Shown here one piece after another: positions 1 through 31,919 of a stretch of 37,915 bases of DNA; within the stretch, counting starts at the first letter, position 1; every line of letters starts with the position of its first letter. Source of the DNA: Chlorobiota bacterium (GTDB lineage Bacteria; Bacteroidota; Bacteroidia; Bacteroidales; JAADGE01); the NCBI GenBank assembly GCA_013152535.1, contig JAADGE010000027.1, forward strand, positions 1 to 37,915, given 5' to 3'. Both the position numbers and the translations under genes were made by a program. The notes below the pieces were generated by a model. That model had not been told where the DNA came from and did not search any database. It saw nothing but the letters and a program-made list of their open reading frames with translations.

Positions 1-228
1 CTACACAAGTTCCGGTCGTTCAAACAGCTTTTATTTTTACGTTATTCTGCATTTGAAAACTACGAAATTTCTTTGAGGTCGAAAATTGCAATTTGCAAAA
101 TAACCGAATATTTCAAAAGCTGCATTTCCTGAAAGTCCCTAGTTCGTACATTTTTCTTTTGAAAATACTCCGATTTTACAATCATTTTCGTTATATTGGG
201 GTAAGCGGCAGTACCAGATTTTTAATAA

Positions 229-1542
229 TTACTCGTCATTATGCGGCGGATTATTTCCGATTAAAATTGTATCTGTAATTGTTGTATCCGGCTCAACTAT
301 TGTAAAATTAATTTTATCTAACCAATCTTTATAAACTTTTTTTGTTTTATTAAAACTCTCTTTAAATTCCGGTTTAATCGGTTCAACAGGCGGTGCATCT
401 ACATGGAGCGGGTTTATATTTTTACCGTTTTTCCAAACTCTGAAATCGAGATGAGGTCCTGTCGCTAAACCCGTCATTCCCACATATCCGATAACTTGCC
501 CTTGATGAACCCTAACACCGGAATGAATGCCTTTGGCAAAACCTCTGAGGTGCATATATCCTGTTGAATACACGCTGTTATGCTTAATTTTTATATAATT
601 ACCGCCGCCGTGTGTGTAATATGCTTTAAGCACAACACCGTCGCCGAGTGCATGAACCGGTGTGCCGGAAGGAGCTGCATAATCAACACCCAAATGCGGA
701 CGAACAATTTTTAAAATAGGGTGTTTCCGGGCGTAAGAAAAACCGCTGCTTATTCTCGAAAATTTTAAAGGTGCTTTAAGGAAAGCTTTCCTTAAACTGT
801 TGCCGCTAAGATCGTAAAAATTTACAACACTGTCTTGTTTAAAAGGAATGGCATAAATAGTGTCTCCGTAATGTTCAAAATAAGCTGCTAAAATTTTTCC
901 GTAACCTATTGATGTATCGTTTACAAATTTTTCTTCATAAATCATTTTAAACTTATCATTTTTCTGTAATCCGAAGAAATCGACAGTCCAAGCAAAAATT
1001 TCTGATAAATCATTCGCTAAAATCGGATTTACACCGGCATCTTCCATTGCATACCATAAATTTGAAGTAATAACACCGGCAGCCTCTTTAATTTTTACAT
1101 CCACATTTTTTGTTCTTTCACAGACATTCATACTGTCTTTTAGATTGAAAACAAGATAATTGGTTTTATTTTTTTCATAAATAAAATAATCCGGTGTTTT
1201 AGAAGTGTCTTTATCCGGAAAAAAAACAGCGTATTTTTGCCCGCTTTTTATTTTTCTGACATCAAAAATATCTTTTGCTTTTTCTAATATTGTGTGAAGT
1301 TTCGAGCTTATATGATACTTTTGAAAAATGGTACTTAAAAATTCATCGGGTTGGATGTGTCCTGTTTCTATTTTATAGTTATCGGTTTTAATACCGTATA
1401 ATTTATGCTCTTCGGGTTTTATTTTTACAATTTCTTTATTTTGTTCAGCAGTATTTGTTTCAGCATATTTTTTATATGTAAAATATGCAGCAATACTTAT
1501 TCCGATAAGGGCAATAATAATAAGGGCAATTTTTTTATTCAT
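229..1542 (-). CDS. M23 (LytM-type) peptidase-like protein, membrane anchored
   Basis: This protein of 437 aa probably acts on cell-wall peptides in the periplasm. I start it at the ATG at 1542, because the next codons give a charged start and a hydrophobic anchor (about residues 4-22); a longer frame begins with atypical sequence. The central part (30-230) is family-typical but not recognisable by motif. The C-terminal M23 domain has an intact first metal motif HLGVD near residue 279. The expected HxH motif reads GPHLDFR near 363, so the second His is Asp. I recall such changes in Bacteroidota M23 proteins; activity is therefore uncertain. It is transcribed divergently from the cobalamin adenosyltransferase gene. 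Confidence 0.85.
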   Translation of the reverse strand: MNKKIALIIIALIGISIAAYFTYKKYAETNTAEQNKEIVKIKPEEHKLYGIKTDNYKIETGHIQPDEFLSTIFQKYHISSKLHTILEKAKDIFDVRKIKSGQKYAVFFPDKDTSKTPDYFIYEKNKTNYLVFNLKDSMNVCERTKNVDVKIKEAAGVITSNLWYAMEDAGVNPILANDLSEIFAWTVDFFGLQKNDKFKMIYEEKFVNDTSIGYGKILAAYFEHYGDTIYAIPFKQDSVVNFYDLSGNSLRKAFLKAPLKFSRISSGFSYARKHPILKIVRPHLGVDYAAPSGTPVHALGDGVVLKAYYTHGGGNYIKIKHNSVYSTGYMHLRGFAKGIHSGVRVHQGQVIGYVGMTGLATGPHLDFRVWKNGKNINPLHVDAPPVEPIKPEFKESFNKTKKVYKDWLDKINFTIVEPDTTITDTILIGNNPPHNDE

Positions 1543-27577: not shown

Positions 27578-28081
27578 TCAAAATGAAAACCACATTTTTT
27601 GAGCTCTTAAAACTTGCTCAATAATATCTCTTATACAACCTTTTCCGCCGTTTTTATCCGAAATGTAATGTGCTATGCCCTGAATTTCTTCTACGGCATC
27701 GGCGGGGCAAGTTGCCAAACCGGAAATTTTCATTACTTCGTAATCCGGAATATCATCGCCCATATACAGAATTTGTTCCGGCTTTAAGTCGTATTTCATG
27801 TAAAAATCTTCGTAATCGTCAAGTTTGTTATGCGACCCGAGATAAATGTCGGTAACTCCTAAGCCCTGAAATCTTTTTCTGACACTTTCGGAAGTTCCTC
27901 CCGAAATAATGCCGATAACAAAACCTTTATCCGCAGCCGTTTTTACGGCAAAACCGTCTTTAACGTTCATGTGTCTCGTTAATTCGCCGTCGGTATGCAA
28001 TACCATATCTTGCGAAAATACGCCGTCAACATCAAATACAAATGCTTTAATATCTTTTAATCGTTCTTTAAAATTATCCAT
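27578..28081 (-). CDS. kdsC: KdsC-like HAD phosphatase (KDO-8-phosphate phosphatase family)
   Basis: A 167-aa capless HAD hydrolase. Motif I is VFDVDGVFSQ, motif II lies at GIISGGTS, and motif IV is YMGDDIPDYEVM, with Lys in the SHNKLDDYEDF region as motif III. The size and the C-terminal NGGKGCIRDIIEQVL segment match the tetrameric KdsC type, which makes KDO for lipopolysaccharide; close relatives act on N-acylneuraminate-9-phosphate. No KDO synthase is nearby. It follows the GH26 gene by 18 bases. Confidence 0.88.
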   Translation of the reverse strand: MDNFKERLKDIKAFVFDVDGVFSQDMVLHTDGELTRHMNVKDGFAVKTAADKGFVIGIISGGTSESVRKRFQGLGVTDIYLGSHNKLDDYEDFYMKYDLKPEQILYMGDDIPDYEVMKISGLATCPADAVEEIQGIAHYISDKNGGKGCIRDIIEQVLRAQKMWFSF

Positions 28082-28099: not shown

Positions 28100-29149
28100 T
28101 TACAGTTCGGTAACTCCGAACTCTAAAATTGTGTAAGGTTTGTTTTTCGATATTTCGATAAATTTTTTATGTGCTTTTTCGAGTAAATCTTCGGGTCTTA
28201 AATCATTGTATCTGTCGCCTCTTTGAAACGGTCCGTATGTACTCACGCCGAGCCAATCTATGTAATTGTCTCCGGGATAATAGAATACGGGGTCGTTCCA
28301 ATCTTCATCAGGGTCGCTGTTTACGTCAAAATGAAAAAACCAAGTTATGTTTTCGACACCGACTTCATTACAAATATCAATAATATGTCGGTATGCATCT
28401 CTGAAAATCTCGGGACCGTCGGGATAGTCAGGATCTCCGTATTCGTTTTTTGTTCCTGCTCCGTAATATTTTCCGTTCCACGAAAACCAATAACCGTTCA
28501 TTTCCGTTCCGAATTCAACAAGTAAGTTTTCTTTCGTGTTTTTTGCTTCTTCAAACCAAGCAGTTAAAGCAGTATCATGCTTGCCATTTATAATTTCTTT
28601 TAAGTTCCAAATCGGGTCGATGCGGTATTCTTCAAATTCGCTTCTTGCCATCATTCTTATAAAAGGTGTTTTTCCAACATTAATAATTGTTTGAACTTCT
28701 TCGGAAGGAAATTTTATCGTATCGTTCCAATTATCTGAAAAATATGCCCAAGTAATTTGTTTTCCGATTAATGTTTCATAGTTTGTAATTCGGTCTTTTG
28801 TAACGCAATCTTCTTCTCCGCAAAAATCGGGAAAAGCGGCAAAGTATTTTTTTCCGTTAAGCTGAATAAGTTTATTGTTTTCAAAGGAACATTCGGAAAC
28901 AAAATTCTCTGAGTTTATTAAATTTTTAAATGTTTCAAGCGATTTTTCAGAAGAATTAACTTTTAAATAAGTGTTGTCAAAATCTTCATTCCAATACGAA
29001 ACGGCATAAATATCGTCGTAATTTTTCAGTGCATCGAAATAGCCGGTAAGCCATTCTGATTTTGAATGAAAAATACTGAATTTTTTTTTACAAGAATTGC
29101 TTGTGAAAGAAATAATAAGCAAAACAATAAGTAATTTGAAAGATTTCAT
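28100..29149 (-). CDS. GH26-like lipoprotein with circularly permuted barrel
   Basis: A 349-aa lipoprotein (lipobox TSNSC, Cys 20), probably facing the periplasm or cell surface. GH26 enzymes are mostly beta-mannanases. The acid/base Glu is E216 in FGTEMNGYWFSW; the nucleophile Glu is E343 in ILEFGVTEL, only 6 residues from the end. Ordinary GH26 proteins continue after this Glu with a helix, strand 8 and helix 8. Those pieces appear at the N-terminus (31-79): SEWLTGYFDALKNY, then IYAVSYWNEDFDN, then SSEKSLETFKNLIN. The usual first strand follows only at about 102-109 (YFAAFPDF). The order is therefore permuted, not truncated. It lies between the DUF2520 and kdsC genes. Confidence 0.75.
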   Translation of the reverse strand: MKSFKLLIVLLIISFTSNSCKKKFSIFHSKSEWLTGYFDALKNYDDIYAVSYWNEDFDNTYLKVNSSEKSLETFKNLINSENFVSECSFENNKLIQLNGKKYFAAFPDFCGEEDCVTKDRITNYETLIGKQITWAYFSDNWNDTIKFPSEEVQTIINVGKTPFIRMMARSEFEEYRIDPIWNLKEIINGKHDTALTAWFEEAKNTKENLLVEFGTEMNGYWFSWNGKYYGAGTKNEYGDPDYPDGPEIFRDAYRHIIDICNEVGVENITWFFHFDVNSDPDEDWNDPVFYYPGDNYIDWLGVSTYGPFQRGDRYNDLRPEDLLEKAHKKFIEISKNKPYTILEFGVTEL

Positions 29150-29166: not shown

Positions 29167-29952
29167 TCAATGTGCTTTTTCTGAAATATTTTTGCTGACA
29201 AAGCTATAAATCTTTTGTAAATCGGGCTTGTTTTCCAGTAAATTTAAGTGTATTTCAAGAACTTTCGTATCGTTTCGTACGGCAGGACCCGTTTGTATTT
29301 TATTCGGATTTTCTTTTTTTATTTTATCAAAAGTTTCTTGAAGAAGGGGCAGCAAAATATCAAAATCAATATTTTGTTCTTTTAAAATTTCTTCGGCAAT
29401 TCCGGTCATTCTGTTGGTAAAATTATTGGCAAAAACGGCAGCAAGATGTATGTATTTTCGTTGTTCGGAATTTATATTTCTTACATCATTGCTGATTTGC
29501 GAGGCATATTTTAAGAGTTTGCCGAAATTAAATCCCGAACTTGCTTCAATGCAAATCGGGATATTTTTGAAATCAAGAATTTTGTTTTTTGAAAATGTTT
29601 GCAGGGGATAAAAAACGCCGAAATTTTCAGAAAGCGGTTTCAGAATGTTTGCAGGCATGCTGCCGGCGGTATGCACGACAAGATTATTGTCTATTTTTTC
29701 TTTTAATACTTTGCTTTCAGACATTTTCCGGATTGCATCATCACGTATTGAAATAATATATAAATCAGCTTCTTCCGGAATATTTTCAATCTTAAAAGAG
29801 TGGGGGCAATGTAATTTTTCGGCAAGTTGTTTTGCTGATTTTTCGGTGCGACTGTGTATGTGAATATTATCTGTTAAATGCTTTTTTAAAGCAAATGCAA
29901 GGTTTGTTGCTACATTTCCGGCTCCTATTATAACAATTTGATTTTCGGGCAT
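29167..29952 (-). CDS. Rossmann/DUF2520 family oxidoreductase-like protein
   Basis: A 261-aa protein. The N-terminal Rossmann domain has the dinucleotide loop IVIIGAGNVATNLA near 7-20 and a conserved HTAGSMP turn. The DUF2520 C-terminal domain (about 120-255) carries FYPLQTFS, the helix block YIHLAAVFANNFTNRM and TGPAVRNDTKVLE. The fold is that of 6-phosphogluconate-dehydrogenase-like reductases; the substrate is unknown. In Bacteroidota this gene is often next to the kdsC-like gene; here a GH26 gene sits in between. It starts the minus-strand run down to comB. Confidence 0.9.
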   Translation of the reverse strand: MPENQIVIIGAGNVATNLAFALKKHLTDNIHIHSRTEKSAKQLAEKLHCPHSFKIENIPEEADLYIISIRDDAIRKMSESKVLKEKIDNNLVVHTAGSMPANILKPLSENFGVFYPLQTFSKNKILDFKNIPICIEASSGFNFGKLLKYASQISNDVRNINSEQRKYIHLAAVFANNFTNRMTGIAEEILKEQNIDFDILLPLLQETFDKIKKENPNKIQTGPAVRNDTKVLEIHLNLLENKPDLQKIYSFVSKNISEKAH

Positions 29953-30618: not shown

Positions 30619-31500
30619 TTAGTCATTTTCTTCATAGTAATACGAATAGTCAATCCCTTTCATAAACATTTCGCGGTCGTTGATTTTATCGGTTAAAGCA
30701 TTTTTCAGCAAGCTTTTCAGAACATTGCTGTTTGTCGGGCTTTGCATCATTGCACTCATATAATCTCTTTTGCTTATTTTACTCCAATCAACGCATTTTT
30801 CCAAGCGTTTTTTTAATATCAAATCCAACCATATTCGGGTGCTTCTGCCGTTTCCTTCCATAAACGGGTGTGCAATGTTCATTTCTGCATATTTGTTCAC
30901 GATTTTGTCAAATGTAGTTTCGGGCATTGCTTCTATTTGCTTTAATGTTTCGCCCAAAAAATGTGATACGGCAAATTGAAAACCGCCTTTTGAAATATTT
31001 TTTTGTCTGATTTGCCCTGCAAAATCATACAAGCCGCCGAACAAATAAGCATGAATTTGTTGTAAGCCTTTAGTTGTGCCAATTTCAATACTATTGATAA
31101 ATGAACTTTCAAACAAGGCATATGCTTTTGTTTTACTTTTTCCGTCTATGCTTTCATCACTATAAGTAAACCATTCAATAAATCGGTTTGCTTTTTTGCC
31201 GGGAAATTCTTTACCTAATGCAATAATTCCGGTGTAATCCAACATATCTGCTAAACGCTTTTTTCCGTCAGGTGCAATGATTTTCAACCGGGTAGTGGCA
31301 CTAACCACTTGACTGTTTTCCTTCTTCAACTTGGCTTTAAGGTATTTCCAATAGTTGCGAGTTTTAGTATAATCGTTTTGGTCGGTAAGCACAGCAACTA
31401 TATCCAACACCGAGAACCACCACTTGGAGTTCGTTTCGTCCCAAACAGCACGTACTTCCCGGTCGTTAAAAAAACGTACGGATATTTTTTCCTTACTCAT
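30619..31500 (-). CDS. Bro-N domain fused to Fic adenylyltransferase-like domain
   Basis: A 293-aa protein with two domains. Residues about 8-110 match the BRO-N/antirepressor type: [34 protein letters not shown] and a [13 protein letters not shown] turn. Residues about 130-293 are a Fic domain with the full active motif [12 protein letters not shown] (about 211-222), so nucleotide transfer to a target protein is possible. I see no clear inhibitory (S/T)xxxE(G/N) helix inside it and no antitoxin-like gene next to it. The ATG at 31500 gives MSKEKISV; an upstream in-frame extension has no support. It sits in an accessory block with a HigBA pair. Confidence 0.88.
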
Positions 31501-31919
31501 ATTTTTATTTTCAAATTTGCATTGTAATGTTGATTTGTCTTTTTTTATTATTCCTTTTGCGAATTTACAAATAAATATCAATGAAAAGTGATGTTTAAAG
31601 CCTGAATTTTAGTTTTCGAACTTATGTATCAGTAAAACGGTTTTTCTTTTCATTTCCTAATTTCTGCTGTGGTTTTCTCATTCTAACTAACGTCAAAGTT
31701 AGTTGTTGATTATCGGTTGTTTATGGTTTTCTTAATTCTTTTCCATTATTTTGCTTTTTCCTCTCCTTGTCAGCTAAAATATTCAACGGAATTTTTCAGT
31801 ATGTCTTGTATGGTTAGTGGCATGTTAAAATTACTACATTTTCAGTTATACATTAATGAAACTAACTTTGAGGTTAGCAATTAGTAGCTATTAACTATAC
31901 AAATTGTTGTACATATGTA
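31501..31919. other. 419-base interval with an inverted repeat pair, no gene seen
   Basis: Nothing codes convincingly here. Two copies of an 18-base sequence lie in opposite orientation at 31687-31704 and 31860-31877, with one mismatch (AACTAACTTTGACGTTAG against AACTAACTTTGAGGTTAG). Each copy is itself a small hairpin (CTAAC with GTTAG). The enclosed 155 bases are AT-rich and featureless. Confidence 0.5.

Follow-up and report, generated by a model that had tools for sequence, protein, structure and literature searches.

We analyzed a window of 37,915 nucleotides, the whole stretch of contig JAADGE010000027.1, and focused on one of its open reading frames (ORFs), which codes for a GH26-type lipoprotein with its parts in permuted order. 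The ORF (28100..29149) lies on the minus strand, a point absent from the preliminary description, and runs from an ATG at 29149 to a stop codon at 28102-28100, yielding a protein of 349 amino acids (aa) whose closest homologues are 82% identical across almost the full length. Residues 1 to 20 (29090..29149) form a signal peptide with a lipobox, the Cys20 of which is invariant in 42/42 aligned permutants. Residues 28 to 91 (28877..29068) correspond to the transposed C-terminal segment of GH26, i.e., helix 7, strand 8, helix 8, and the C-terminal tail; they were delimited by phmmer and profile matches, and the structural model places a helix at 30 to 41, a strand at 47 to 53, and a helix at 68 to 78. 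A seam (residues 92 to 104, 28838..28876) follows, in which a comparison of 49 permutants with 40 conventional proteins showed a conventional N-terminal lead-in of the KLxxPxxG type fused onto a conventional C-terminal tail. The GH26 core (residues 98 to 349, 28103..28858) comprises strands 1 to 7 and helices 1 to 6, as defined by Pfam, the predicted structure, and the structure alignment. It carries the predicted acid/base E216 (28502..28504) and the predicted nucleophile E343 (28121..28123), and the chain stops exactly six residues after the latter, in agreement with the preliminary description, whose quoted peptides (SEWLTGYFDALKNY, IYAVSYWNEDFDN, SSEKSLETFKNLIN, YFAAFPDF, and ILEFGVTEL) all occur in the translation. 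The last sixth of the barrel is thus now at the front of the protein. All these features are on the minus strand, as are the two genes that lie outside the permutation and mark the insertion site: upstream, a gene for a DUF2520/Rossmann protein (29167..29952) and, downstream, one for a HAD hydrolase (27578..28081) that we presume to be KdsC-like.

Sequence evidence for a swapped order

The Pfam GH26 family (PF02156) matched residues 194 to 309 with 36.9 bits, against a curated cutoff of 20.2. In a phmmer search of the PDB, CtLic26A, the GH26 lichenase of Clostridium thermocellum, was matched by two stretches in swapped order, with residues 181 to 348 of the query aligned to 74 to 227 of the chain and residues 28 to 79 aligned to 230 to 281. 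The second stretch is weak by itself: its i-Evalues in the three displayed alignments are 0.61, 15, and 20. We therefore rely on a profile of the N-terminal segment, built from 32 of the 42 permutants in our alignment. Against 177,635 distinct PDB sequences, it gave 10 matches at E<=1, every one of them CtLic26A or a fusion with CtLic26A, at the C-terminal segment and with E values from 2.6e-12 to 9.6e-11. Rotating the window protein back in silico produced a single continuous alignment with CtLic26A (chain residues 74 to 281) and raised the score to PDB entry 2bv9 from 42.3 to 58.7 bits. The segment profile and the rotation both align residues 28 to 91 to the GH26 C terminus, which bears out the identification of the N-terminal segment in the preliminary description.

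A Pfam search with residues 20 to 90, which the preliminary description had recommended, found no match to GH26. Pfam left the transposed segment unmatched in either order, the match in the rotated sequence also stopping short of the end, and NCBIfam gave no match to the whole protein. Since the Pfam match of a conventional relative likewise ends early, at profile position 251 of 311, the negative result on the segment is uninformative. Some phmmer rows pointed to designed armadillo proteins (residues 149 to 192 and nearby); they were short, had no independently passing stretch, and were taken as chance.

Predicted structure of the permutant

An AlphaFold model computed with 42 permutants reached a pLDDT of 92.1 and a pTM of 0.88. 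Its strands are predicted at residues 47 to 53, 101 to 106, 134 to 140, 161 to 167, 209 to 213, 268 to 275, 299 to 306, and 339 to 346, the first being the transposed one. The model reaches eight strands only with this N-terminal strand, in line with the earlier statement that the protein is complete rather than truncated; residues 100 to 349 hold seven of the eight, so that no complete ordinary barrel is predicted within them.

We compared this model with that of a conventional relative (L047:4295-5404; pLDDT 87.1, pTM 0.85). With the sequential aligner VIA, only residues 97..349 of the permutant were aligned with residues 7..228 of CtLic26A (2cip; 217 residues with a Z of 22.2 and an rmsd of 2.0), and its other residues were left outside the sequential alignment, whereas the conventional model aligned over 49..360 on 7..282 (Z 33.9, 271 residues). 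Similarly, Foldseek TMt values versus seven CtLic26A chains were 0.62 to 0.66 for the permutant and 0.85 to 0.89 for the conventional relative. The structures nearest to the permutant model, in rows 1 to 35, are GH26 chains, a few of which, such as 2ddx, we assume to belong to this family; together with row 36 (the engineered 3tp4), they span Z scores of 14.4 to 22.2. The next matches are β-xylosidases from Z 13.2 on, two of them GH39 by title. Matches outside GH26 (GH5, GH39, GH53, and others) were attributed to other barrels in the clan and rejected as the identity of the protein. The transposed part thus escapes linear family models and sequential structure searches, which recognize the core alone.

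These data confirm that the ORF is homologous to GH26 in two segments of one parent whose order is swapped, i.e., that it is a natural circular permutant, and the predicted fold is the same (β/α)8 barrel. The chain would start and end in the loop between strand 7 and helix 7 and would run from the lipid-bearing Cys through α7, β8, and α8 to β1 to β7, the pieces closing into one ordinary barrel. A monomer prediction would also be compatible with a domain-swapped dimer, in which the N-terminal segment completes the barrel of a neighboring molecule, and lipid anchors could bring such molecules together in the membrane. We find this arrangement very improbable, as the monomer model is confident and the linker from helix 8 to strand 1 (residues 79 to 100) is short, about the length that would close one barrel.

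Occurrence of the permuted and conventional orders

We then looked for homologues by scanning genome contigs, took the best 80 of 81 loci, and classified 90 proteins: that of the window, those of the best 80 of 81 loci (two of which have two genes each), and those of seven further loci. Although the profiles used for classification were trained on permutants only, the segment profile found a C-terminal copy in 40/90 proteins, with 8 to 91 bits (about 50 bits or more in 33/40); the one with 8 bits (L110), counted as conventional, is doubtful. The segment was N-terminal of the core in 49 proteins and at both ends in none, and the remaining protein (L074) is a contig-edge fragment without the segment. 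Homologues that share the permuted order, a search for which had been proposed earlier, therefore exist. Within the best 80 of 81 loci, 48 were permuted, 31 conventional, and 1 undecided. Searches in the order and the class gave 11 additional loci, all 11 permuted and three identical to loci among the best 80 of 81.

Several loci were left out of the 90: L001 and L111, which repeat the window; L003 and L004, weak matches from other parts of its genome; and L085-L103. The last group is mostly identical to loci among the best 80 of 81, but includes a partial core followed by the segment (L094) and three distant cores with no detectable segment (L093, L095, L096). It also includes a single permutant whose segment is split across two frames (L089/L099, genome G029), a copy that looks frameshifted or misassembled.

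Both orders occur in the genus of the window. Four of its genomes have permutants that are 82% (G007), 82% (G003), 70% (G011), and 67% (G012) identical to ours and a fifth has a fragment (G010), while the conventional genes of two others (G004 and G005) show a core identity of 47 to 55%. The protein family is rare: it was found in 8/395 sampled genomes of the phylum (threshold 1e-10), 12/393 of the order (1e-20), and 2/395 of the class (1e-20), the genome of the window being counted in each.

The records of the permutants are mostly titled Bacteroidota or Chlorobi, with a few Campylobacterota, Gammaproteobacteria, and Hyphomicrobiales; contigs with the latter three titles may be misbinned. Six records (L005, L006, L008, L010, L047, and L048) have a permuted or conventional GH26 gene identical to that of a genome from the window's genus and are titled Bacteroidales, Bacteroidetes, Chlorobiota, or Chlorobi. 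As records matching one genus carry differing titles, we regard the titles of these metagenome-assembled genomes as unreliable for taxonomy.

The homologues come mostly from metagenome-assembled genomes, which could suggest that the permuted order is an artifact of assembly or annotation. This order recurs, however, in 48 of the best 80 of 81 loci under many different record titles, one permutant (L026) lies on a single 3.5-Mb chromosome, and both parts of the gene are under purifying selection (see below), so that we consider an artifact refuted in practice, with a negligible residual probability.

Seam and origin of the permutation

We next examined the junction between the two parts. Most conventional proteins have a KLxxPxxG-type lead-in at the mature N terminus, ahead of strand 1, and an FxTxxxF-type tail after helix 8, which is near the C terminus in proteins with no further domain behind it. 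The tail of the permutants passes directly into the lead-in, with 7 to 11 residues between the two profile matches in 49/49 proteins. Their seam pattern, FxTxxxFxx-KLxxPxxG-IYHxAFPDF, equals a conventional tail plus a conventional lead-in and reads FVSECSFENN-KLIQLNGK-KYFAAFPDF in the window. The old C terminus is thus joined onto the old N terminus, the scar expected from the fusion of two head-to-tail copies.

Conventional genes are direct neighbors in two records, L047 and L048 (L047:2669-5404 and L048:2591-5330, from the genus mates G004 and G005), with only a few bases from stop to start; the first gene of the L047 pair has a GH114-associated domain at its N terminus. In the core tree, these tandem genes are diverged paralogues within a conventional clade and not the direct parents of the permutant. 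The preliminary description had proposed tandem duplication followed by loss of the outer halves. The seam and the tandem conventional genes of the genus speak for this proposal, but none of the 90 classified proteins was an intermediate carrying the segment on either side of the core, and none came from a fused double gene.

We propose permutation by duplication as the most likely origin. The fusion of two head-to-tail conventional genes would have made the C-terminal tail of copy 1 run into the mature N terminus of copy 2. The core of copy 1 would later have been lost, the signal peptide now preceding the helix 7 of copy 1, and the last segment of copy 2 would also have been lost later. Alternatively, two split genes may have been rejoined in reverse order by fission and fusion, with no tandem duplication. 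The lack of a duplicated intermediate (0/90) would fit this scenario, since the duplication model allows half-way proteins with duplicated ends, as described in the accessible part of PMC3320104. Nevertheless, the seam retains both the conventional tail and the mature N-terminal lead-in with hardly any additional residues, and tandem conventional genes a few bases apart do exist, which makes fission and fusion unlikely.

Whether the permutation happened once was addressed with two trees. The core tree had 81 rows (47 permuted, 34 conventional), after removal of two very divergent rows (L077, L080), identical rows, and rows in which fewer than about 200 core positions were aligned; L074, missing both ends, was included as permuted. 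The tree of concatenated core and segment had 82 rows with both parts (44 permuted, 38 conventional), retained the long rows L077 and L080, and had a bootstrap that had not settled. The two trees require three and five changes of order, respectively, and in the former, the permutant L045 clusters with the conventional L075 (90/82), as if the permuted order had arisen repeatedly or reverted in places and the permutants were not one clade. On the other hand, the branches of L045 and of several conventional rows are long, the starred branches demand one change only, and a single permutant clade was not rejected by the AU test (p 0.49 for the core, p 0.383 for the concatenation). Moreover, the cut is identical in 49/49 permutants and their seams are much alike. 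We thus consider several events rather unlikely and a single origin possible.

Predicted catalytic residues and selection

In the phmmer alignment, E216 and E343 correspond to residues 109 and 222 of CtLic26A, which we take to be its catalytic residues. Both Glu are invariant in 42/42 aligned permutants, as is the counterpart pair (E169, E295) in 20 aligned conventional relatives, and they lie where the two catalytic Glu of GH26 are expected, one at the end of strand 4 and the other at that of strand 7. E216, at the end of β4, would act as the acid/base and E343, on β7, as the nucleophile. An EFGTE motif is also present in the consensus of the conventional relatives, although not in every row, and is therefore characteristic of the subfamily rather than of the permutation.

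We compared the surrounding residues with those of GH26 mannanases, placing them by their offset from the acid/base and using the accessible part of PMC6556568. G219, W221, and F222 match conserved residues of the +1 and −1 subsites. R197 and H200 of BoMan26B, conserved in GH26 mannanases at the −1 subsite (PMC6556568, same part), are replaced by E212 and T215; consequently, activity and substrate are uncertain and we do not claim a mannanase. Positions 52 and 53 are both candidates for the counterpart of BoMan26B W314, a strand 8 Trp in the −1 subsite.

Selection was estimated with the NG86 method. Versus L005 and L006, the segment gave dN of 0.144 and 0.087 and dS of 0.99 and 1.09, and the core gave dN of 0.082 and 0.085 and dS of 1.39 and 0.75; dS versus L008 and L007 was high or not computable. 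The resulting dN/dS of about 0.06 to 0.15 indicates purifying selection on both parts.

Judging from its conserved residues, the permutant is likely a retaining glycanase. The replacement of the mannanase Arg and His, together with the lack of a general sugar utilization neighborhood (see below), could instead point to a noncatalytic lipoprotein with a glycan-binding or structural role. We judge this quite improbable given the invariant Glu pair of the 42 aligned permutants, the conventional relatives that share the EFGTE consensus and both Glu, and the fact that further glycosidase domains are found in or next to some of those relatives. Taken together, it is highly probable that the ORF codes for a lipid-anchored, putatively retaining GH26-type β-glycanase, a natural circular permutant that most likely arose by duplication and is predicted to fold as a single barrel.

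Predicted lipid anchor and orientation of the barrel

A sequence rule for the lipobox was passed by 46/49 permutants and by 16/40 conventional proteins. The three permutants that fail it begin at a contig edge (L017, L042) or have a Cys that the rule rejects (L023). Permutants are thus predicted from their sequences to be bacterial lipoproteins, with a lipobox Cys after a hydrophobic signal, and this Cys is separated from the segment profile match by 7 to 21 residues.

The catalytic face of a (β/α)8 barrel carries the loops that follow the strands, and the conventional N terminus, before strand 1, is on the other face. Because the cut falls between strand 7 and helix 7, both termini of the permutant are on the catalytic face. 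From this topology, we predict that the lipid anchor sits on the active-site side, with 7 to 21 residues between it and helix 7, and that it is on the opposite face in the conventional lipoprotein relatives. We may speculate, with low confidence, that the permutation was kept because it moves the anchor from the barrel bottom to the active-site side, such that the cleft faces the membrane that tethers the enzyme and acts on glycans located at the envelope or leaving it. If true, circular permutation would be a way of re-aiming a tethered enzyme while leaving its active site unchanged.

Genomic context

The permutant gene is a single insertion between the DUF2520 gene and the KdsC-like gene. 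These two genes flank the permutant in the window and in three further genomes, G007 (L005), G003 (L006), and G011 (L008). A KdsC-like match was found in 16 family genomes, of which 4 are occupied by the permutant and 10 have the two neighbors together with no room for a gene (L114-L117, L119-L123, and L126); in L124 and L125, DUF2520 is absent from the stretch fetched. One of the ten unoccupied genomes, G012, has its permutant on another contig, and the conventional pair of G004/G005 is elsewhere in the genome. In the window's genus, the permutant sits in a row of housekeeping genes, outside a sugar utilization cluster. Elsewhere in the window (30619-31581), a gene for a Fic-domain protein, the N terminus of which matches BRO-N weakly, adjoins a SnoaL-like gene.

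When we searched for protein families common to at least three loci, no neighborhood was generally conserved across permutants, and no general sugar utilization neighborhood emerged. Shared families were limited to small groups of loci; for example, a GH3-type protein was found near five permutants (L029, L032, L036, L038, and L043). In L043, the protein directly upstream of the permutant (L043:954-4007) combines GH3 and β-lactamase-like domains and has relatives near the other four. A TonB-receptor-type protein occurs near the permutants L028 and L039 and also in L047 and L048, and a 445-aa protein of no named family is common to L030, L033, and L035.

As for conventional relatives, L063 has a GH2-type neighbor whose family recurs in L047 and L048, and GH114 and GH114-associated domains are found in L049 and L047, respectively. 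Three records titled Caldisericales or Caldisericaceae (L049, L050, and L053) have a conventional GH26 part followed by long C-terminal extensions; the one checked, L049, is a GH26-GH114 fusion. A protein with DUF2334 and a family 2 glycosyltransferase domain (L067:6183-8834, the domains being checked in this locus only) has relatives in L037, L052, L071, and L080, and the recurrence of such proteins near the GH26 subfamily hints at exopolysaccharide processing.

Comparison with known systems

Our literature searches, in which coverage of subscription papers was thin, texts were available in part, and preprints were outside the scope, revealed no precedent for a permuted GH26 or mannanase among the matches examined. 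These matches, which combined permutation with GH26 or mannanase, used the word otherwise (random permutation methods, a carbohydrate-binding module reference, statistics, shuffled cellulosomes, and NlpC/P60). The accessible parts of two TIM-barrel reviews (PMC8250049 and PMC13105402) deal with designed permutants and with permutation as one general evolutionary force.

The closest solved relative of both segments is CtLic26A (PDB 2bv9, 2cip, and 2cit), which has the same fold and is 23% identical over the aligned core but has the conventional order and, before the acid/base, an Arg and a His in place of the E212 and T215 of the permutants. According to the accessible part of PMC6556568, GH26 β-mannanases such as BoMan26B resemble the permutant in their clan GH-A barrel, their two catalytic Glu, and the Gly, Trp, and Phe after the acid/base; they differ by their conventional order and by R197 and H200, which the permutant lacks. 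The GH26 subfamily of the permutant also has conventional members (L047/L048, L054, L062, L063, and others), those named being about 46 to 55% identical, with both catalytic Glu and similar lead-in and tail peptides but with the segment at the C terminus instead.

To our knowledge, natural TIM-barrel permutants are few, and in the textbook case, GH70, the barrel is embedded in large proteins. Glycosidase barrels with a natural permutation are already known: in the part of PMC4919382 available to us, GH70 glucansucrases are described as a natural circular permutation of the GH13-type (β/α)8 barrel, permutation by duplication is proposed for them, and nonpermuted, GTFC-like members are reported. 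Like the permuted GH26, GH70 begins with a helix and ends with the preceding strand (α3 ... β3) (PMC4919382, same part). GH70 is nevertheless another family, multidomain and acting on α-glucans, with its cut in the 3/3 loop, whereas that of the permuted GH26 is in the 7/7 loop. In the GH26 subfamily, a small enzyme exists in both permuted and unpermuted form within one genus, at about 50% identity and with the joining scar still legible, which makes the duplication model, the tolerance of the fold, and the effect of relocating the membrane anchor directly testable.
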